Assembly (NCBI GenBank): GCA_021294835.1
Contig: JAJTDF010000002.1
Span: forward strand, 1 to 64,000
Direction of reading: 5' to 3'
Length of the DNA stretch: 64,000 bases
Origin: Planctomycetaceae bacterium
GTDB lineage: Bacteria > Planctomycetota > Phycisphaerae > Phycisphaerales > UBA1924
The notes below the pieces were generated by a model, which was not told where the DNA came from, did not search any database, and was given only the letters and a program-made list of their open reading frames with translations. How positions within the stretch are numbered: position 1 is the first letter of the stretch; each line of letters begins with the position of its first letter. Shown in pieces: positions 511-12,988 of this stretch. A program made the translations under genes and the position numbers.

Positions 511-1913
511 ATGCCCGCGCCCAGCCGTCCAACTGAAGTGCTGATCGTCGGCGGCGGAATCGCCGGCATCGCCTGCGCTCTCCGCCTCGCCGAGGCCGGC
601 GTCGCCACCACCATTCTCGAAACCCGCAAGAAGCTCGGCGGCCGCGCCACCAGCTTCGTCGACATCCGCTCCGGCGCCGTGCTCGACAATTGCCAGCACG
701 TCGCCCTCGGCTGCTGCACCAACTACCTCGATCTTCTCCGCCGCCTCGGGGTCGATGACAAACTCACCTGGCACCGCACCCAGTACTGGGTCGAACGCGG
801 CGGCCGCATCTCCGAACTCCGCCCCGACGCCTTCGGCGACCGCCTCCCCGCCCCCGTCCACTTCGGCCCCTCGTTCATCGGTGCCCACTTTCTCACCAGC
901 GAGGAAATCGCCCGCGCAGCCTTCGCCATGGGCAAGATCCTCCTGACCGACCGCACCCGCTGGCGTGATGCCACCTTTGACCGCTTCCTCTTCTCGGCCG
1001 GTCAGACCGATCGCCTCATCCGCCGCTTCTGGGAACCGGTCATCGTCTCCGCCTGCAACCTCCCGTGCAACCGTGTCGCCGCCTCCTCCGCATTGCACGT
1101 CTTCCAAGAGGGCTTCCTCGCCCACAAGCGCGCCGCCGAGATCGGCATCTCCCGCGTCCCCCTCCTCGAGCTCTACGACGCCGCCGAGGGCGTCCTCACC
1201 GCCGCCGGCGGGTCCATCCGGCTCGGCGCTTCCGTTGACCGCATCCAGCCCGGCAAGGTCACGCTCTCATCCGGCGAGGAGCTCACGGCACCCCACGTCG
1301 TCTCCACGGTGCCCCCCGAACGCATCGCCTCCACCGTCGCCCCCGAGGTCATCGCCGCCGACCCACGCCTGAACACCGGCGCCGCCGACCGCCTCGCCCA
1401 CAGCCCCATCCTCGGCGTCCACCTCACCTTCCAGCGTCCCGTTCTGCATATCCCCCACGCCGTCCTGGTCGAAGGCGCCACCCAGTGGCTCTTCCGCAAG
1501 GACGAGCACGGCCGCGCCATCCACGCCGTCATCTCCGCCGCCGATGCCTGGATGGACCTCTCCGAGCAGCAGATCGCCGACCGCGTCATGGCCGACCTCC
1601 GTGCCTACTTCCCCGCCGCCAACCCCGAACTCCTCTCCATCCGCGCCGTCAAAGAGAAACGCGCCACCTTCGCCCCCACCCCCGAGGTCGAAGCCCTCCG
1701 CCCCCCGGCCCTCCCCCCCGGCGCCGCCCCCACCGACTTCCTCATCCTGGTGACTGGACCGCCACCGGCTGGCCCGCCACCATGGAAGGCGCCACCCGCT
1801 CCGGCTACTTCGCCGCCGCCGCCGCCCTGGGCCGCCCCGCAGGCGCCTTCCTTGCCCCCAGCCTCCCCGTCGCCCCGCTCGCCCGCTTGCTCGGCCTCCC
1901 CGCATCCGCATGA
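511..1913 (+). pseudogene. hpnE: hydroxysqualene dehydroxylase / squalene-associated FAD-dependent desaturase (HpnE-like), frameshifted
   Basis: The ATG at 511 follows the synthase stop by two bases. The product begins with a dinucleotide-binding motif (VLIVGGGIAGIACALRLAEAG) followed by GGRATSF, as in amine-oxidase-fold desaturases; HpnE reduces hydroxysqualene to squalene. The frame is good to about 1748 (LIL). The conserved C-terminal FAD segment GDWTATGWPATMEGATRSGY then continues in the third frame, ending at the TGA at 1911-1913. A loss of one base (or 4, 7...) around 1745-1752 would explain this. Read through, the protein would be about 467 residues, normal for the family. Either the gene is freshly inactivated, or this is a sequencing or assembly error, or a programmed shift; I see no slippery heptamer. 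Confidence 0.8.
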
Positions 1914-1981: not shown

Positions 1982-3125
1982 ATGATCTCCCGCCCCATCG
2001 CCCTCCTGCTCGCCGCCGGCCTTGCCCTCGCCGCCGCCCTCCCCGCCCCGGCACAAGACCGCCCTGCTTCCGCACCCGCAACCGCCCCCGGCAAGCAGCC
2101 CGCCGCCCCCGTCCGCGACGGCCCGGTTGATCCCGCCACCGCCCAGCCCTCCATCCGCTTTGGCCTCAAAGAGGCCCCCGCACGCACCAAGGGCGCCATC
2201 CGCGTCACCACCTACAACATCGAAAACCTCTTCGACGACAAGGACGACCCCGCCCTCACCGGCGACAACGACGACAAAGACATGACCAAGCCGGCCGCCC
2301 TCTCCCAGGCCGCCGCCGACGCCATCAAGGCCTTGAACGCCGACGTCATCGCCCTCCAGGAGATCGAGAGCCTCCAGGCCCTCACCCAGTTCCGCGACAC
2401 CTACCTCACCGGCCTCGGCTACGACCACATCGTCTCGCTGGATTCCGGCGACTTCCGGGGCATCGAGAACGCCGTCATCTCCCGCTTCCCGCTGGAGAAG
2501 GCCGAAGTCTGGCCCAACCTCCCCCTCGGCGGCGAGCACCCCGCCACCTGGGGCAACGAGCCCAACCGTGAGGCCGGCAAGCCCATCCTCTTCCGCCGCT
2601 CCCCCCTCCGCGTCACCGTCGTCGTCCCCGCCGCCAAGGTCGCCCAGCTCCAGACCGAAGCCGGAGCCGCTGCCGCTGCCGCTGCACCCGCCGCCGACTA
2701 CCGCCTCACAGCAGAACCCCGCCGGCAACATCCTCGTCCTCGGCGACTTCAACGCCCAGGAGAACGAAGAGTCCTTCAAGATCCTCGAGCGCGGCAACCC
2801 CTCCATCGGCGTCGCCCCCCTGACCGACCTCCTCCCCGGCCTCGGCCGCCAGAACCCCAAGACCACCACCCACTCCTCCGGCCGCGCCATCGACCACATC
2901 CTCTTCGGCTCCAACCTCGCCGGCGAGATCCTGCCCGACACCGCCTTCGTCCTGGGAACCATGGACCGCCCCGCCGGCGCCAACTGGCGCACCACCCCGC
3001 CCCCGCCCGGCTACGCCAGCGACCACTACCCCGTCAGCGTCGACATCCTCCCCATCAACAAGCCCGCCGCGGCCGCCACCCCCGCGACCCCCACCCCGGC
3101 CCCAGCCCCGGCCAACCCCAAGTAA
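1982..3125 (+). pseudogene. secreted endonuclease/exonuclease/phosphatase family protein with internal deletion and frame change
   Basis: The ATG at 1982 opens a signal peptide (a hydrophobic stretch ending near ALPAPAQ). EEP-fold motifs follow: TTYNIENLFDD (the Asn), ALQEIES (the metal Glu), then at 2728-3045 GDFNAQ, SGRAIDHILFG and ASDHYPVSV. The first half reads in frame 2 up to about 2705 (DYRLT). The second half reads in frame 3 from about 2705 (QQNPAGNILVLGDFN) to the TAA at 3123-3125. Between them the family normally has a strand with the HFKS-type catalytic His and a helix, roughly 40-60 residues, and these are absent. As written the gene cannot make a working enzyme. A collapsed assembly is as likely as a real deletion. 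The Ala/Pro-rich tail is typical of neighbouring secreted proteins. Confidence 0.75.
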
Positions 3126-3213
3126 CCCCCCAAAGAACCCCAACCCAGACCCCCGCTCCACCCCGCCCACTTCCCCCGAACGCCTACCGCGTCTATCATC
3201 CTCACCAACCCCT

Positions 3214-3288
3214 GCCGAGGTAGCTCAGCTGGTTTAGAGCGCTGGATTCATAACCCGGAGGTCGGCGGTTCGAGTCCGCCCCTCGGCA
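3214..3288 (+). tRNA. tRNA with CAT anticodon (Met elongator, or Ile2 if lysidine-modified)
   Basis: A full cloverleaf can be drawn. The acceptor GCCGAGG pairs with CCTCGGC, followed by discriminator A. The D stem is GCTC/GAGC. The anticodon loop is TTCATAA on a stem with one A-C mismatch at its closing pair. The T arm is GCGGTTCGAGTCCGC. CCA is not encoded (CTT follows). The initiator signature, an unpaired first base with three G-C pairs closing the anticodon stem, is not evident, so I favour elongator Met or Ile(CAU). It stands alone between the EEP gene and a DUF433 gene. Confidence 0.93.
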
Positions 3289-3418
3289 CTTTCTCCGATC
3301 GGCCCGCTTCGGCCTGTCCTCCCCTTCCTTGTCTCTGTTGTCGGATCCGGTCAGCGGGCCCCGTTCCAGCTATTGCTGGCCCCGGCTCTCGGGGCAACAT
3401 GGCTCCAAAGGGCACGCC

Positions 3419-3652
3419 ATGGAAGAAGTCGCTCACTCACGTATTGAGATCGATCGCCAGAAGTGCCACGGCCGGCCCGTGATTCGCGGGACCCGAGTCC
3501 CTGTAGCGGTGATCACCGGCAGTCTTGCCGCCGGCATGAGCAAAGAGGCTGTCGCCGCCGAGTATGACGTCACCATGGCCGACATCGAAGCCGCTCTCCG
3601 CTACGCAACCGAGTTGCTCGAGCGCCAACGCCGCTCCCCGCTGAGCGACTGA
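3419..3652 (+). CDS. DUF433 domain protein (VapB-like antitoxin family)
   Basis: 77 residues. The sequence has the DUF433 pattern: an N-terminal strand with DRQKCHGRPVIRGTRVPV, then a helix-turn-helix-like segment (GMSKEAVAAEYDVTMADIEAALRYA). DUF433 proteins are often paired with DUF5615 PIN-like toxins and are thought to be DNA-binding antitoxins. No toxin gene follows here: the next 157 bp are non-coding and ndk is on the other strand, so this is an orphan. The start is the first ATG of the conserved domain. Confidence 0.85.
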   Translation: MEEVAHSRIEIDRQKCHGRPVIRGTRVPVAVITGSLAAGMSKEAVAAEYDVTMADIEAALRYATELLERQRRSPLSD

Positions 3653-4457: not shown

Positions 4458-6917
4458 ATGGCCAAACACCACGCCCGTTCCGGCAAACCCACCGGCCCCA
4501 CCGCCCCCGCCTCCAGAGGACCACGCATGGACGCGTCCCCCTCCCGCCCCTCCGCTGCCCCCGCCGCCCGCACCCGCCGCGCCCCGGCCCACGCCGACGA
4601 CGCCCAGGCCAGCCTCCTGCCCGCCGAGGAAGAAGAACTCTCCTCCGCCAAGGCCCGCATCGAGCGCAAGAAGCGCGAACTGGAGAAAGAGGCAACCGGC
4701 CGCCGCGCCACCGCCGAGTCCATGGCCTCGCGCCAGCGCGACATCTCCGTCTCCGAGTTCTTCGCCAAGAACCGCCACCTCCTCGGCTTTGACAACCCCC
4801 GCAAAGCCCTCCTCACCACCGTCAAAGAGGCCGTCGACAACTCGCTCGACGCCTGCGAAGAGGCCGGCATCCTCCCCGACATCACCGTCATCATCGAGGA
4901 CCTCCAGCCCGACCGCCCCGCCTCCGCCAAGTCCGCCCGCTACCGCGTCAGCGTCGTCGACAACGGCCCCGGCATCGTCCGCAAACAGGTCGAGAACGTC
5001 TTCGGCCGCCTCCTCTACGGCAGCAAGTTCCACCGCCTGAAGATGTCCCGCGGCCAGCAGGGCATCGGCATCTCCGCCGCCGGCATGTACGGCCTCATCA
5101 CCACCGGCCGCCCCATGGTCATCCACACCCGGCCCGATGCCCGCCGCCCAGCGCACCACATCGAGCTGGCCATGAACACCAAGACCAACCGCGCCGAGGT
5201 CACCACCGACGACGAGACCGAAGACTTCCCCCCCCAGCGTTTCCTCACCCTGTCTTCCTCCGCCCGCCGCCTCGCCGCCGAGGGCACACTCCTCGCCTCC
5301 TCCGACTACGTCACCGGCACCTCCGTCTCCATCGAGCTTGAGGGCCGATACCAGAAGGGCCGCGGCTCGGTCGATGAGTTCCTCGAACTCACCGCCATCG
5401 CCAACCCCCACGCCCGCATCACCTTCATCACCCCCTCCCGCGTCGCCGACGACGACGCCGACGACACCGCCCCCATCCGCTTCACGCGAAACAGCGCCCG
5501 CGACGCCGCCGCGGCCAACCCGGCCGCCCCCGCCCAGCCCGAGCCGGGCGACGACAAGCCCCGCACCGACGTCAAGACCGAAGAACGCGACGGCATCATC
5601 CTCTTCCCCCGTGCCGTCAACGAGCTCCCGCCGGAAACCAAAGAGATCCAGCCCCACCCCAAGGGCGTCGAGCTCGGCACCCTCCTGCAGATGGTCAAGG
5701 ACCACGAGGTCGCCCAGCCCGGCGCCACGCTGTACAACTTCCTGCAGGACCGCTTCTCCCGCATCTCCCCCGCCACCGCCAGCAAGCTCTGCGACGGCGT
5801 GAAGATGTCCTCCCGCGCCAAACTCGGCGACGTCGACCACGATCTGGCCGAGAAGCTCTTCAAACTCCTCCAGGACGCCGACCTCCCGCCCCCGCCTACC
5901 GACTGCCTCGCCCCCATCGGCGTCCGCCAGCTCCTGGCCGGCATGCTCAAAGGCGTTCGCGCTGAGTTCTACGCCGCCAGTTCCCGCGAGCCCGCCGTCT
6001 ACCGGGGCCGCCCCTTCCTCATCGAGGCCGCCATCGCCTTCGGCGGCGAACTCTCCGGCGACGACTCCGCCCGCGTCATCCGCTTCGCCAACCGTGTCCC
6101 CCTGCTCTTCCAGCAGTCCGCCTGCTCGTCCTTCAAGGCCGTCGTTGAAACCAACTGGCGCAACTACGACCTCCAGCACCCCCGCGGAGCCCTCCCCGTC
6201 GGCCCCCTGGTCATCATGATCCACATGGCCAGCGTCTGGGTCCCCTTCACCTCCGAAAGCAAAGAGGCCATCGCCGACTACGACGAAATCCGCAAGGAGA
6301 TGAAGCTCGCCCTCATGGAGTGCGGCCGCAAACTCGGCACGTACCTCAAGAAGCGGGCCCGCATGCGCCGCGAGGCCGAACGCCGCGACGTCTTCGAACG
6401 CTACATCGGCGAGATCACCAAGGCCGTCAGCGCTATCAACGGCACCGACGCCCGCAAGCTCTACGACGCCCTGCTCACCCAGGCCAAGAAGCGCACCGCC
6501 GTCGCCGACCTCCAGCTCGACGAAGACGGCAAGGCCATCAAGGACGAAGACCCCGCCGATCAGGACGGCGTCATCATCCTCGACGCACCCGGTTCAGCCG
6601 CCGCCCCAGCCTCCCAGGGCCTCGGCGAGGTCAAGCCCGACCGGGCCATCAAGTCCCGCAGCGGTGACGAAACACCCTCCCTCCTTGGCGACGCACCCGC
6701 CGACGAGCCCCCAGCCCGCAGGGCCAACGCCAAGGCCTCCGCCGCCAAACCCGGCAAGCCCGCCAAAGCAGCCAAGGGCGACAAGGGCGAGAAATCAGGC
6801 AAGCCCGCCAAGTCGGAGCCTCCGCCCGCAGCCGCCAAAGCCGCCAAGCCCAAGATGAGGCTCGATCCCAAGACCGGCAAACTCAAGCCCGTCGACGACG
6901 GCCCCGGCCTGTTCTGA
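4458..6917 (+). CDS. top6B: type IIB DNA topoisomerase VI subunit B (ATPase)
   Basis: 819 residues against about 530-650 in archaea. GHKL ATPase motifs are intact: N1 with KEAVDNSLDACEE (Glu124, Asn128), N2 VVDNGPGI (Asp168-Gly172) and N3 RGQQGIGISAAGMYG (about 198-212). A transducer-type domain follows, with the NRVPLLFQQSAC and HMASVWVPFTSESKEAIADY regions that are typical of TopoVI-B. The enzyme passes one duplex through another with two-base 5' overhangs, using ATP. The first ~90 residues (Pro/Ala/Arg-rich, then charged helix) and the last ~110 (Lys/Ala/Pro-rich, repeated KPAK/KAAK) are extra and look disordered and basic. A lipoprotein gene and then the A subunit follow on the same strand. 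Confidence 0.93.
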   Translation: MAKHHARSGKPTGPTAPASRGPRMDASPSRPSAAPAARTRRAPAHADDAQASLLPAEEEELSSAKARIERKKRELEKEATGRRATAESMASRQRDISVSEFFAKNRHLLGFDNPRKALLTTVKEAVDNSLDACEEAGILPDITVIIEDLQPDRPASAKSARYRVSVVDNGPGIVRKQVENVFGRLLYGSKFHRLKMSRGQQGIGISAAGMYGLITTGRPMVIHTRPDARRPAHHIELAMNTKTNRAEVTTDDETEDFPPQRFLTLSSSARRLAAEGTLLASSDYVTGTSVSIELEGRYQKGRGSVDEFLELTAIANPHARITFITPSRVADDDADDTAPIRFTRNSARDAAAANPAAPAQPEPGDDKPRTDVKTEERDGIILFPRAVNELPPETKEIQPHPKGVELGTLLQMVKDHEVAQPGATLYNFLQDRFSRISPATASKLCDGVKMSSRAKLGDVDHDLAEKLFKLLQDADLPPPPTDCLAPIGVRQLLAGMLKGVRAEFYAASSREPAVYRGRPFLIEAAIAFGGELSGDDSARVIRFANRVPLLFQQSACSSFKAVVETNWRNYDLQHPRGALPVGPLVIMIHMASVWVPFTSESKEAIADYDEIRKEMKLALMECGRKLGTYLKKRARMRREAERRDVFERYIGEITKAVSAINGTDARKLYDALLTQAKKRTAVADLQLDEDGKAIKDEDPADQDGVIILDAPGSAAAPASQGLGEVKPDRAIKSRSGDETPSLLGDAPADEPPARRANAKASAAKPGKPAKAAKGDKGEKSGKPAKSEPPPAAAKAAKPKMRLDPKTGKLKPVDDGPGLF

Positions 6918-6968
6918 TCCACCCGATCGCGCTTCCCCAGTTCCTCCCGCCCCCACACAGGACCACCC

Positions 6969-7283
6969 ATGCCCGCATCCCTCCGCCGTCTCCCCATCTT
7001 CGCCGCCCTTGCCCTCGCCGCCATCCTCAGCGGCTGCGGCCCAAAGCTCGACCAGGCCAGCTACGACAAGATCCAGACCGGCATGACCCTCCGCGAGGTC
7101 GAGCGCATCCTCGGCGGCCGGGGCGAGGACGAAACCGCCTCCGGCATGTCCATCGGCTCCTCCGGCCTGACTGACAACCGCAAGGCCGCCCAGAACGTCT
7201 TCCGTTGGAAGAAGGGCACCGCCAACATCGTCGTCATCTTCCGTGATGACAAGGTCATCTCCAAGACCTCCGAAGGCCTCTGA
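6969..7283 (+). CDS. small outer-membrane-type lipoprotein, SmpA/OmlA (BamE-like) fold
   Basis: 104 residues. A signal peptide with the lipobox LSGC (Cys about residue 25) is followed by the SmpA/OmlA pattern: YDKIQTGMTLREVERILGG, a middle region, then NVFRWKKGTANIVVIFRDDKVISKT. BamE assists outer-membrane protein insertion; many relatives with this fold have other or unknown roles. It lies 51 bp after top6B and 87 bp before top6A, all co-directional, so it is probably co-transcribed with a DNA topoisomerase. I see no functional reason for that. Confidence 0.85.
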   Translation: MPASLRRLPIFAALALAAILSGCGPKLDQASYDKIQTGMTLREVERILGGRGEDETASGMSIGSSGLTDNRKAAQNVFRWKKGTANIVVIFRDDKVISKTSEGL

Positions 7284-7370
7284 CCGAGCACCTCGCCCTC
7301 CGGCCCACCTCGCCCCGCCCCATCCGTTTGCCCCACCTCGCCCCCACCGCCGATCCGTCGAGCACCGACC

Positions 7371-8519
7371 ATGGCCAAGAAAGCCGCCGCCGCCGCCAAC
7401 GCGTCCAACGTCACCAAGTCCGTCAAGGAACGCGACACCCGCACCATGTCGCGCATCGTCGACCTGGCCGACTCGGTCGCCTCCAAGGCCCTCGCCGGCC
7501 GCGAGCCCAAGGTCGCCATCCCCCTCCGCACCAAGTCCAACACCATCTGGAACCGCAAGCGCGGCATGCTCGAGATGGGCGACGCCGCCGCCGAACGCGA
7601 ACTGTTCAACCTCAACCAGGCCAAGCAGTTCATGCAGACCTGCCTGCACGCCAACTCCATCAAGGAGCTCATCGAGGCCGAGAAGACCCTCAGCCTCCGC
7701 GGCATGTTCTACAAGGGCCTGCACACCGTCCAGGGCACCAAGGAAAAGACCTTCGCCGATCAGGACGAGTCCGACGGCATCCTGGAAGACCTGGAAGTCT
7801 CCCTCGGCTCCCTCCGCGAAGAACTGCACATCTTCGCCAAGAAGAAGGGGACGATGATCGGCAACATCACCATCGTCGACACCGGCGACGAGATCGACTG
7901 CCGACGCATGGGCTCCGGCGGCTACGCCATCCCCAGCATCGTCGAGCCCGACGTTATCCAGTTCAAGAAGTGCGACGCCAAGTTCGTCCTCCATGTCGAG
8001 AAGGACACCGTCTGGGGCCGCTTCAACGAGGACAAGTTCTGGCAGAAGCACAACTGCATCCTCACCGAGGGCGGCGGCCAGCCCTCCCGGGGCGTCCGTC
8101 GCCTCCTCCAGCGGTTGAACAACGAACTCGGCCTGCCCATCTACTGCCTGCTCGACTGCGACCCCTGGGGGCACTACATCTTCTCGGTCATCAAGCAGGG
8201 CTCCATCTCCCTGGCCTTCGAGTCCAACCGTCTGGCCATCCCCGACGCCAAGTTCATCGGTATCCGCTCTAAGGACTACACCGCCTGCGACCTCTCTGAC
8301 GACGTCAAGGTCGAGATGAACGACACCGACATCAAACGTGCCAAGGAGATCGCCGCCTACCCCTGGTTCTTGGGCCACAAGGGCTGGCAGGCCGAGATCG
8401 ACCTCATGCTCCGCAACGGCTTCAAGATGGAAGTCGAATCCCTGATCACCAAGGACATCTCCTACGTCACCGAGGAGTACGTCCCCCAGCGCCTCAAGGC
8501 CAAGGACTGGCTGGTCTGA
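7371..8519 (+). CDS. top6A: type IIB DNA topoisomerase VI subunit A (Spo11-like)
   Basis: 382 residues, normal length. The winged-helix 5Y-CAP part carries the Spo11-like active site SLRGMFYKGLH, with Tyr114 as the expected nucleophile that links to DNA. The Toprim domain shows Glu210 (VEKDTVWGRF) and the DxD pair Asp262/Asp264 (LLDCDPWGHYI), the Mg site. Conserved GGGQPSRGVRRLL and the C-terminal EIDLMLRNGFKMEVE match the family. The N-terminal 20 residues are Ala/Lys-rich. The partner B subunit is upstream. All catalytic residues are present, so an active A2B2 enzyme is likely. Confidence 0.94.
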   Translation: MAKKAAAAANASNVTKSVKERDTRTMSRIVDLADSVASKALAGREPKVAIPLRTKSNTIWNRKRGMLEMGDAAAERELFNLNQAKQFMQTCLHANSIKELIEAEKTLSLRGMFYKGLHTVQGTKEKTFADQDESDGILEDLEVSLGSLREELHIFAKKKGTMIGNITIVDTGDEIDCRRMGSGGYAIPSIVEPDVIQFKKCDAKFVLHVEKDTVWGRFNEDKFWQKHNCILTEGGGQPSRGVRRLLQRLNNELGLPIYCLLDCDPWGHYIFSVIKQGSISLAFESNRLAIPDAKFIGIRSKDYTACDLSDDVKVEMNDTDIKRAKEIAAYPWFLGHKGWQAEIDLMLRNGFKMEVESLITKDISYVTEEYVPQRLKAKDWLV

Positions 8520-10318: not shown

Positions 10319-10834
10319 ATGTCCGCAACCCTCGCCCCCCTCCCCGCTCAGCCCCTGTCCCCCGCCGGCACAGCCGCCCCGCTGCCCGAAGCCCTGCCCG
10401 CGCTCGCGGCCGCCGCCATCCACGCCGCCCATGTCCTGATCACCTCCCTCACCACCCTCGCCGCCCGCACCGACGAGCCCCAGGTCGCCCTCCGCGCCTG
10501 CTCCACGCTCACCAGCGCCCTCCGCACCCTCCCCAAACTGCTCGCTTCCGTCTCACCCGCCGCCGCCCAGGACGACACAACGCCCCCACAATCCAGCCCA
10601 TCCCGTCAGCCTGCCCGCCGGTCCACCCCAATCCCGCGCCAGACCCCCATTGCCCGCACGCCGCAGCCCCCGGCTTCAGTCACCTCGCTGGCTTCTGCTT
10701 CCCCCGCCCACGTACCCCCATCCGCCATCACGCCCAGCACTTCATCCACACAAGCCGCGCCCGCCAAGCCCACCGACCCACCCGTCGCACCCCCGCACCT
10801 CCGCCCCATCCCGCCTCACCGTGCCGCCGGATGA
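10319..10834 (+). CDS. Ala/Pro-rich protein of unknown function
   Basis: 171 residues from an ATG with a good Shine-Dalgarno (AAGGAG, 7 bases). The first ~85 residues are rich in Ala/Leu and predicted helical (ALAAAAIHAAHVLITSL, CSTLTSALRTLPKLLAS). The rest is Pro/Ser/Ala-rich and probably disordered. I do not recognise it. The 3' end overlaps the convergent apbE by 19 bp. The upstream palindrome suggests regulated expression. Confidence 0.6.
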   Translation: MSATLAPLPAQPLSPAGTAAPLPEALPALAAAAIHAAHVLITSLTTLAARTDEPQVALRACSTLTSALRTLPKLLASVSPAAAQDDTTPPQSSPSRQPARRSTPIPRQTPIARTPQPPASVTSLASASPAHVPPSAITPSTSSTQAAPAKPTDPPVAPPHLRPIPPHRAAG

Positions 10835-11835
10835 AACACCACCTCCACGCCCTCATCCGCAAACCCCCGCACCAGCGCATCGGCCTCCGGCCCCGGCCCC
10901 ATCAGACACAGCGCTGACGCCAGCGCATCGGCCACCCAGCCGCGCTTGGCCACCACCGTCACCGGATACACCCGCTCTGCGCCCATCCCCGTGCGCGCGT
11001 CGATCAGGTGCGCCATCCGCCGCCCGTTGATCTCCACCGTCTGAAACGCATCCCCCGAGGTCGACACCGCCCGATTCACCACCCGCAGCGTCCGCCCCGC
11101 TTCCCCACTGCCGCCGCCGCCCGCCTCCGCCAGCACCTCCCACGCTCCCCCCGCCCGCCCGACGACCGCCGGTCGCGCCGCCCCCGCGAACACGTCCCCC
11201 GCCAGCGCCGCCATCGCTGCCGTCGCCCCCGCACTCTCCATCGCCCGCACCGCCCGCTCCGCGGCGTAGCCCTTGGCGATGCCCCCCACATCCAGCCGCA
11301 TCCCCTCCCGGGCCAACTCCACAGCCCCCGCCCGCTCGTCCACAGTCAACAACGCCCAGCCGCTCCGCGCCCGCGGCTCCGCCAGCGTCGCGTCCGCAGC
11401 CATCACCCCCGTCCGCCTCGCCTCCCGCCACAGCGCCGTCAGCGGTCCCACCGTCACATCAAACCGACCCCCGCTCGCTCGCGCCACCCGCTGCGCCCCC
11501 GCCAGCACCTCCACCAGTTCAGGTGACACATAAACAGGTGATCCAACCGCCGCGACGCCTAGCCGCGACAGTTCACTCCCCGCCCGCCAATCGCTCATCA
11601 TCGCCTCAAGCCGGGCCACCTCGGCAAACCCGACCCGCGCCAGCCGCTCACCTTCCGCCTCATTCGCCGCAAACACCACCAGATCCGCCCGAACCCCCAT
11701 CAGCATTCTGGTATACTCGAAGCGTCCCACGTTCTGTGGGTGCAACCTGCAACCGCTCACCAGCCCCAGCGCAATCACCATCAGGGCAAGCAGCCCCGTT
11801 GCCCGCACCGCCCAACCCACCGCTTGGCAGTTCAT
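10816..11835 (-). CDS. apbE: FAD:protein FMN transferase, lipoprotein (ApbE family)
   Basis: 339 residues. The N-terminus is a lipoprotein signal (hydrophobic stretch then LVSGC). ApbE motifs are present: LDVGGIAKGYAAERA, NRAVSTSGDAFQ, AHLIDARTG and WVADALASALCLMG. The enzyme attaches FMN to Thr/Ser of exported proteins such as Rnf or Nqr subunits using FAD. No flavoprotein target is encoded here. The start at 11835 gives a normal signal length. An ATG at 11895 with a better Shine-Dalgarno (GAGGTGG) would give a 20-residue longer N-terminus. It is divergent from the FGE-fold gene. Confidence 0.9.
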   Translation of the reverse strand: MNCQAVGWAVRATGLLALMVIALGLVSGCRLHPQNVGRFEYTRMLMGVRADLVVFAANEAEGERLARVGFAEVARLEAMMSDWRAGSELSRLGVAAVGSPVYVSPELVEVLAGAQRVARASGGRFDVTVGPLTALWREARRTGVMAADATLAEPRARSGWALLTVDERAGAVELAREGMRLDVGGIAKGYAAERAVRAMESAGATAAMAALAGDVFAGAARPAVVGRAGGAWEVLAEAGGGGSGEAGRTLRVVNRAVSTSGDAFQTVEINGRRMAHLIDARTGMGAERVYPVTVVAKRGWVADALASALCLMGPGPEADALVRGFADEGVEVVFHPAAR

Positions 11836-11956
11836 CCCCCGGCCACTCGGACGCAACCGCCCCCACCCGCAGATTGCTGATCGCCCGCTTCTCATCGCAG
11901 TCCACCTCGTGTTCCCGCGCCCCGCGGCCCCGCATCCTTGCCAAGGACCATCGCCC

Positions 11957-12988
11957 TTGCCCACCCACGCTGCTCCCCGTGTGTCCCGCCGGCTCGCCGC
12001 GCTTCTGCTCACGCTTTCTCCCGCCTTCGTTGCCGCCCCGGCCCAAGGCCAGCCTAAGCCCGCCGCATCCGGCTCCCCCACCCAGCCCCTCAAGGCCACT
12101 CCCCAGTTCATCACCCCCGCCCCGGCCCCCGGCTCCGGGGCCGTCGCGCTCCGCCAGCCCATCCCCGGCGCCGCCTTCAACCTGAACTTGGTCCTCGTCC
12201 CCGGCTCCCCCGACGGCGCCATCAAGCCCTTCTACATCACCACCACCGAGATCACCTGGGAGGCCTACGACGCCTTCGTCTTCGCCCTCGATGAAGGCGG
12301 CAGCATCACCCCGCCCGAGCCCCCGCCCCCCGGCGGCTACAAGCCTGACCCGAACGCCCAGCCGAACATCAAGCCCGACGCCATCACCCGCCCCTCCAAG
12401 CCCTACATCCCGCCCGACCGGGGCTTCGGCCATGACGGCTACGCCGCCATCAGCATCACCGCCAAGGGCGCCCAGGCCTTCTGCACCTGGCTCTCCGCCC
12501 GCTCAGGCCTGACCTTCCGCCTCCCCACCGAGGCCGAGTGGCGGCACGCCGCCGCCGCCGGCTCCACCGGCGAGTACACCTTCGGCGACGACGTAACCAA
12601 ACTCCACGAGTACGCCTGGTTCTCCGCCAACGCAGATGACACGCCCCACCCCGTCGGCAAGAAAAAGCCCAACCCCTGGGGCCTGTTCGACGTCCACGGC
12701 AACATCCAGGAGTGGGTCATCGGCGCCGACGGCAAGCCCATCACCAAGGGCGGCTCGTACCGCGACGCACCAGAGAAGCTCGCCCTGGCCGCCACCGCCC
12801 GCCAGAGTTCCGGCTGGAACGCCTCCGACCCGCAGATCCCCAAGAGCGTCTGGTGGCTCTCCGACGGCCCCTTTGTCGGCTTCCGCATCATCTGCGAAGT
12901 GCCCGCCAACCTGCCTCCCACCCCCCCGTCCACCCCCGCGGCCAACCCCGCACCCGCCGCCGCCCCCACTCAGGAGTCCCGCAAGTGA
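11957..12988 (+). CDS. formylglycine-generating-enzyme-fold (SUMF1/FGE) secreted protein
   Basis: About 343 residues from a TTG at 11957 (Shine-Dalgarno AAGGA); a GTG at 11909 would also fit. A signal peptide (SRRLAALLLTLSPAFVAAPAQG) comes first. The FGE-fold pattern then follows: FYITTTEITWEAYDAF, ARSGLTFRLPTEAEWRHAAA, NPWGLFDVHGNIQEWV, GGSYRD and DGPFVGFRI. True formylglycine synthases have a Cys right after GFR (GFRC); here the sequence is GFRII and the only nearby Cys comes two residues later, so oxidase activity is doubtful. It may bind a ligand or partner. The gene overlaps the next one by GTGA, so the two are translationally coupled. Confidence 0.82.
   Translation: MPTHAAPRVSRRLAALLLTLSPAFVAAPAQGQPKPAASGSPTQPLKATPQFITPAPAPGSGAVALRQPIPGAAFNLNLVLVPGSPDGAIKPFYITTTEITWEAYDAFVFALDEGGSITPPEPPPPGGYKPDPNAQPNIKPDAITRPSKPYIPPDRGFGHDGYAAISITAKGAQAFCTWLSARSGLTFRLPTEAEWRHAAAAGSTGEYTFGDDVTKLHEYAWFSANADDTPHPVGKKKPNPWGLFDVHGNIQEWVIGADGKPITKGGSYRDAPEKLALAATARQSSGWNASDPQIPKSVWWLSDGPFVGFRIICEVPANLPPTPPSTPAANPAPAAAPTQESRK

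Follow-up and report, generated by a model that had tools for sequence, protein, structure and literature searches.

A complete topoisomerase VI of apparently mosaic ancestry, probably a second type II topoisomerase beside gyrase, in Phycisphaerales

Introduction

Archaeal topoisomerase VI (topo VI), as represented by the structures from Methanosarcina mazei (Protein Data Bank (PDB) entries 2Q2E and 9O8P) and Sulfolobus shibatae (2ZBK), is encoded by separate A and B genes, with a B subunit built of a GHKL ATPase, an H2TH domain and a transducer and an A subunit that joins a winged-helix domain to a toprim domain. In bacteria, the passages of Allen and Maxwell (2024; PMC11302465) drawn on here report topo VI in Pirellulales and Sedimentisphaerales, accompanied by gyrase and without topo IV in the species examined, infer at least two transfers from archaea to bacteria, and leave why some bacteria use topo VI as an open question. 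Here we describe the topo VI locus at positions 4458-8519 of a 64,000-nt stretch of contig JAJTDF010000002.1 (the window), in which the genes for topo VI-B, a small lipoprotein and topo VI-A follow one another. The genome that holds it is a metagenome-assembled genome (MAG) of Phycisphaerales (Planctomycetota), 3.85 Mb in size and 89% complete.

The combination of gyrase and topo VI without topo IV in Planctomycetota is already known from those passages (PMC11302465), and the Phycisphaerales enzyme adds a member to it; no Phycisphaerales family was noticed among the 17 bacterial families named there. The same passages contain no account of a mosaic of A and B, of a break at the B hairpin or of a motif in the B tail, and these features, together with the absence of a second GyrA/ParC protein from genomes with an A subunit of the window's type, appear to be new. 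Judging from its sequence, the locus probably encodes a working A2B2 topo VI that stands alongside gyrase as the second type II enzyme, most likely a decatenase, with subunits of mosaic ancestry, a B tail that acts as a tether and a lipoprotein gene that is incidental.

Identity of the topo VI subunits

The B and A open reading frames (ORFs) are both uninterrupted at the positions where the first-pass annotation had placed them. They are encoded together on the same strand with B upstream of A, an arrangement shared by 57 of the 80 named relatives' loci. The features of the locus are as follows.

4458-6917, + strand: topo VI subunit B, 819 aa, with GHKL ATPase, H2TH, transducer, C-terminal hairpin and tail
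4734-5357, + strand: GHKL ATPase domain of B, residues 93-300, with N-box E124/N128, DNGPG at 168 and GQQGIG at 199
6345-6527, + strand: C-terminal hairpin of B, residues ~630-690, counterpart of the M. mazei segment that docks on the winged-helix domain of A (docking role from PMC13040014), where identity between types collapses
6528-6893, + strand: tail of B, residues 691-812, rich in A, P, K and G and of low confidence or disordered in the AlphaFold2 model
6894-6917, + strand: conserved C-terminal motif DDGPGLF, residues 813-819, and stop codon
6969-7283, + strand: small lipoprotein ORF, 104 aa, with LSGC lipobox, an incidental passenger between B and A
7371-8519, + strand: topo VI subunit A, 382 aa, window type (type 1)
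7710-7712, + strand: codon of the catalytic tyrosine Y114 of A
7998-8162, + strand: toprim metal-binding residues E210, D262 and D264 of A, first to last codon

Subunit B scores 438 bits against the NCBIfam model top6b and 596 bits against PRK04184, and matches Pfam Topo-VIb_trans with an E-value of 2e-56. Subunit A reaches 510 bits against the NCBIfam subfamily PRK04342 (cut-off 465) and matches the Pfam toprim model with an E-value of 2e-57. For both subunits the scores lie well over the thresholds of these models. The N-box residues E124 and N128, the D168-N-G-P-G and G199-Q-Q-G-I-G motifs and the transducer switch lysine K602 are all present in B and invariant across a 31-sequence alignment. 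In A, Y114 of the FY pair aligns with Y106 of M. mazei, and an alignment with a haloarchaeal A among its members shows no variation at the toprim residues E210, D262, D264 and E354. The structure predicted for B by AlphaFold2, of moderate confidence (mean pLDDT 64), shows the GHKL, H2TH (helices at 406-473) and transducer domains, and its best match in the PDB by Foldseek is M. mazei Top6B (E-value 1e-36), with Sulfolobus Top6B also matched.

Topoisomerase VIII is a single-chain type IIB enzyme in which A and B are fused in one polypeptide; here A and B are separate ORFs, which sets that identity aside. A Spo11/topo VIB-like pair, whose B-like subunit lacks an H2TH, is likewise not indicated, as the H2TH is present in the B model. 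The B motifs with K602, the H2TH between GHKL and transducer, and the A tyrosine with its toprim E/DxD residues together identify the pair as topo VI, and the earlier claim of a complete pair with intact GHKL motifs and FY/Toprim residues is thus borne out by ORFs, family models and aligned catalytic residues alike.

The locus resembles archaeal topo VI in its separate genes, in the domain order of both subunits and in the catalytic residues checked. It differs in that its host is a bacterium with gyrase, in that its B body is nearest to M. mazei whereas its A is nearest to Sulfolobus, and in that, in place of an immunoglobulin-like domain, B has a disordered tail tipped by DxPxLF. By analogy with the archaeal enzyme, the ATPase body of B would close on ATP and capture a second duplex, and the transducer stalk and C-terminal hairpin would drive A to cut and pass DNA.

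Distribution in Planctomycetota

Topo VI-A was found in 99 of the 100 genomes of the window's own family and topo VI-B in 191 of the 392 Planctomycetota sampled. The description of topo VI as patchy in bacteria, with which the locus had been introduced, is not borne out in this family, whose genomes have it as a core gene, and its presence in 99 genomes means that it is neither sporadic nor contamination. Archaeal contamination of a MAG, for which we found no support beyond the archaeal affinity of the protein family, has a negligible probability: all 79 high-quality genomes of the family, several of them single-contig assemblies, carry topo VI, the genes neighbouring the locus on the same contig include bacterial types, and the closest homologues are from Phycisphaerales (84-88%). 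Family-wide presence and the nearness of Phycisphaerales kin rule it out. Inheritance within the lineage from an archaeal ancestry, one of the origins first suggested, is upheld by this distribution and by the topology test on A given below.

A search with topo VI-A found one locus in viral contigs, three plasmid records, which are haloarchaeal, and none in phages; Sulfolobus A as query gave no match in viral contigs. The viral-listed contig (L198, IMGVR_UViG_3300037657_000197) carries a type-1 B-A pair that is sister to the other type-1 bacteria and is probably bacterial sequence. Three GenBank MAG records (L094, L103 and L074), titled Chitinophaga, Isosphaera and Singulisphaera, have a Phycisphaerales-like topo VI, and their titles are probably misassigned. 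Within the window's own family, one genome (G269) that is 98% complete lacks topo VI and has a single PF00521 protein; three congeneric genomes have topo VI, so that this may be a loss or an assembly gap.

Topo VI and the second type II topoisomerase

A second GyrA or ParC protein was counted by the number of PF00521 copies over the 392 genomes, restricted to those with a PF00521 match. The genome that holds the locus has one PF00521 protein, a GyrA with GyrA boxes, and no ParC. A second PF00521 protein occurs in none of 63 genomes with topo VI of the window type, in 19 of 123 other topo VI genomes and in 106 of 198 genomes without topo VI. In a sister family of the same order (f3), topo VI is absent from all seven genomes and a second PF00521 protein without a GyrA box, taken to be ParC, is present. 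These proteins share 53-67% identity within f3 and with the one in G370, the sole genome of family f72 without topo VI. The same pattern recurs in families f20, f37, f53 and f94, as read from per-family counts. The exceptions are the gyrase-only lineages f29, f39 and f49, G269, and the topo VI genomes of f63, which have at least two copies.

These counts suggest that either topo VI or topo IV can fill the place of the second type II enzyme and that some planctomycetes would have neither. In Phycisphaerales, topo VI would most likely be the chromosome decatenase in the place of topo IV, a role as second type II enzyme for which the intact subunits, the core status and the single GyrA without ParC in window-type genomes all speak. 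The species described in the passages of PMC11302465 used here are alike in being Planctomycetota with gyrase and without topo IV; by comparison, the 19 planctomycetes that have topo VI and at least two PF00521 copies in our sample, the extra copies being typed in part, indicate that the lack of topo IV may not extend to all.

Two genomes that also have topo VI encode a divergent extra PF00521 protein (L194 in G342, L193 in G117) with 20-30% identity to GyrA and ParC and no GyrA box. The GyrA proteins of Phycisphaerales (L032, which is G000:C36, and L172-L186) have two Q-x-R-G-G boxes rather than one.

Mosaic relationship of A and B

The planctomycete A sequences fall into two types, which belong to different NCBIfam subfamilies and share 33% identity between types against 48-92% within; among the matches listed for the 392 genomes, none lies between 36% and 47% identity to the window A. 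Type-2 A shares 53-60% identity with M. jannaschii A (nearest Methanocaldococcus), and type-1 A is about 41% identical to Sulfolobus A. The B subunits are 54-56% identical between types, 56-59% across families within a type and 33-52% to the archaeal B sampled, the archaeal sample comprising five A and four B sequences, with several PDB sequences entering the comparisons as aligned segments only. In approximately unbiased (AU) tests, a single clade of bacterial A was rejected (p 1.4e-5), and a single clade was rejected neither for bacterial B (p 0.46) nor for type-1 B (p 0.66). The rejection of one origin for bacterial A, together with the at least two transfers inferred in the passages of PMC11302465 cited above, supports an ultimately archaeal origin of bacterial topo VI.

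Along B, identity between types equals that within types up to residue 629, beyond which it drops to 27, 20, 15 and 11%; type 2 by itself keeps 36-62% identity over this part. In M. mazei, the helical hairpin that follows the transducer stalk binds the winged-helix domain of A (PMC13040014). Planctomycete topo VI therefore appears to be a mosaic, in which the B body (to ~629) forms one group and the A-docking hairpin and A come in two deeply different types. The DNA-gate module, that is the 3' end of B with the adjoining A, may have been exchanged as a whole, or A alone may have been replaced and the hairpin co-adapted afterwards, in either case in bacteria or in archaeal donors. As B lies directly upstream of A in both types, one breakpoint towards the 3' end of B could suffice to transfer hairpin, tail and A as a unit. 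Had the type-1 B hairpin resembled that of Sulfolobus, such a one-step transfer would have been favoured over co-adaptation, but the comparison gave no signal (21% against 24%).

The same data could be read as two whole topo VI operons gained independently from two archaeal donors, with no exchange of subunits inside bacteria and a discordance already present in the donors. The two bacterial clusters that PMC11302465, in the passages used, finds for A as well as for B fit such a history, as does the type-1 B clade that was not rejected, so that B could have arrived twice. We nevertheless regard it as rather unlikely, given that B is as similar across types as across families within one and more so than to any archaeal B sampled, against 33% for A; the donors would need much the same B body with very different A subunits, and exchange would still be required somewhere. 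Very improbable, in our view, is a history with no exchange at all, in which A and the B hairpin of one lineage evolved much faster from a single bacterial ancestor. The long Sulfolobus branch and the few archaeal sequences leave some room for it, but type-2 A is far closer to M. jannaschii A than to type-1 A, the type-1 sequences resemble Sulfolobus A more than they do type 2, a single clade is rejected, and no intermediate A was seen among the listed matches.

The C-terminal tail of subunit B

The tail of B, about 120 residues past residue 700, is rich in A, P, K and G and has a net charge of +6. It had been described as a long, basic, Lys/Ala-rich tail that may bind DNA; its length and A/K-richness are confirmed, but its charge is mixed rather than strongly basic and what is conserved in it is an acidic-LF motif at the end, neither of which suits a simple basic DNA-binding tail. 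The residues that follow the switch lysine number 81-87 in type-2 B, 113-209 in type-1 B from outside Phycisphaerales and 186 (median) in Phycisphaerales. Top6B of gyrase-bearing archaea is also extended past the transducer (Villain et al., 2022; PMC9348778); there, however, the extension is a globular domain, in contrast to the disordered tail here, and B of type-2 planctomycetes is not extended in spite of the gyrase in their genomes, which argues against a simple link between gyrase and extension in bacteria.

Tails of Phycisphaerales end in D-D-G-P-x-L-F. LF lies within the last 12 residues in 60 of 72 distinct tails, compared with 0.6 expected from shuffling, and is exactly terminal in 43; the remaining 17 of the 60 run 1-4 residues past F. 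Eight of the other 12 tails have LF further in, three lack it and one (L127) has a broken frame, its real tail ending GLF. In the whole genome, the pattern D-x-P-x-L-F-stop is encoded a single time, at topo VI-B. The tail is thus apparently a long, disordered linker with a conserved tip, and most likely, although our confidence is low, a flexible tether whose acidic-P-x-LF tip would draw topo VI to a partner that may lie at the replication fork.

The sliding clamp (DnaN) is a possible partner that we put forward only tentatively, the tip then being a clamp-binding motif that would hold topo VI at the fork. It ends a disordered linker in LF, DnaE and DinB of the same order carry QxxLF and QLGLF, clamp motifs are C-terminal and variable, and eukaryotic topo II alpha is listed as a partner of PCNA (PMC9690074). 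Yet the Q that DnaE and DinB retain is replaced by G, S, E or D, and is Q once, so that the tip is not a canonical QL(S/D)LF or QxxLF ligand. A search of the literature for topoisomerases with a clamp-binding motif found only reviews and unrelated papers. Mimicry of the SSB tip, which ends in DDDIPF or near variants in this order, so as to bind SSB partners, is less probable still and in our judgement improbable; it would account for acidic residues and a terminal Phe behind a disordered linker, but every one of the 11 SSB tips read finishes in -DxIPF with nothing beyond, whereas the tails that run on past F, and nine more with LF further inside, show that the very C-terminus is not needed here. 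The tip hence shares LF with the clamp motif, without its Q, and does without the terminal position of the SSB tip.

Several points weigh against the reading of the locus as a mosaic, tethered second type II enzyme. The association of topo VI presence with the second PF00521 protein (Fisher p 1e-20) comes from counts that are not corrected for shared ancestry. A single PF00521 protein is found in 92 of the 198 genomes without topo VI, so gyrase-only lineages exist and topo VI is not required by every planctomycete without topo IV. The clamp-type tip has no conserved Q. Lastly, the archaeal sampling is thin and lacks M. jannaschii B, and the Sulfolobus branch is long. The most specific version, in which the DNA-gate cassette (the 3' part of B with hairpin and tail, plus A) was exchanged in one recombination and the tail anchors topo VI at the bacterial replisome by its DxPxLF tip, is accordingly one that we hold to be doubtful.

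The lipoprotein gene and other features of the window

The ORF between B and A encodes a lipoprotein, as had been noticed first, and has a signal peptide and an LSGC lipobox; the SmpA/OmlA fold ascribed to it is not supported, its Pfam BamE match (18.4 bits) being under the cut-off of 23.2. The order B-lipoprotein-A, flagged for checking in related genomes, is not conserved: this lipoprotein next to topo VI is absent from all other loci fetched for comparison, the B-A gaps of relatives are filled by assorted unrelated genes, and homologues in 23 of 60 other genomes of the family are listed at places other than topo VI-A. The gene between B and A is private to this genome, an incidental insertion and not a conserved member of an operon.

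Elsewhere in the window, an HpnE-like amine oxidase gene at 520-1913 (+) is seemingly split over two frames by a frameshift or assembly indel, the Pfam Amino_oxidase match being divided between ORF 4-2130 (N part) and ORF 1485-1913 (C part). An endonuclease/exonuclease/phosphatase gene at 1982-3125 (+) also lies in two frames, ORFs 1982-3223 and 2568-3125 matching successive parts of PF03372. A tRNA gene (Rfam RF00005, 65.9 bits) follows at 3214-3288 (+), and then a DUF433 ORF at 3329-3652. Downstream of the locus, an ApbE-family ORF at 10816-12225 (-) and an ORF with an FGE-sulfatase domain at 11909-12988 (+), with starts as listed, overlap by about 300 bases on opposite strands.

Implications

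Phycisphaerales, with a core topo VI and no topo IV, and with close relatives in which this is reversed, make the use of topo VI by bacteria testable. The mosaic suggests that evolution can part the ATPase half of a type IIB topoisomerase from its DNA-gate half, with the break at a known subunit interface, which would bear on how Spo11 and Top6A-like nucleases gained other partners. The tail motif would give a concrete point of entry to the question of how bacterial chromosome biology accommodates an enzyme of archaeal type. If cassette exchange and tether are both true, an archaeal decatenase would have been fitted into the bacterial chromosome cycle.

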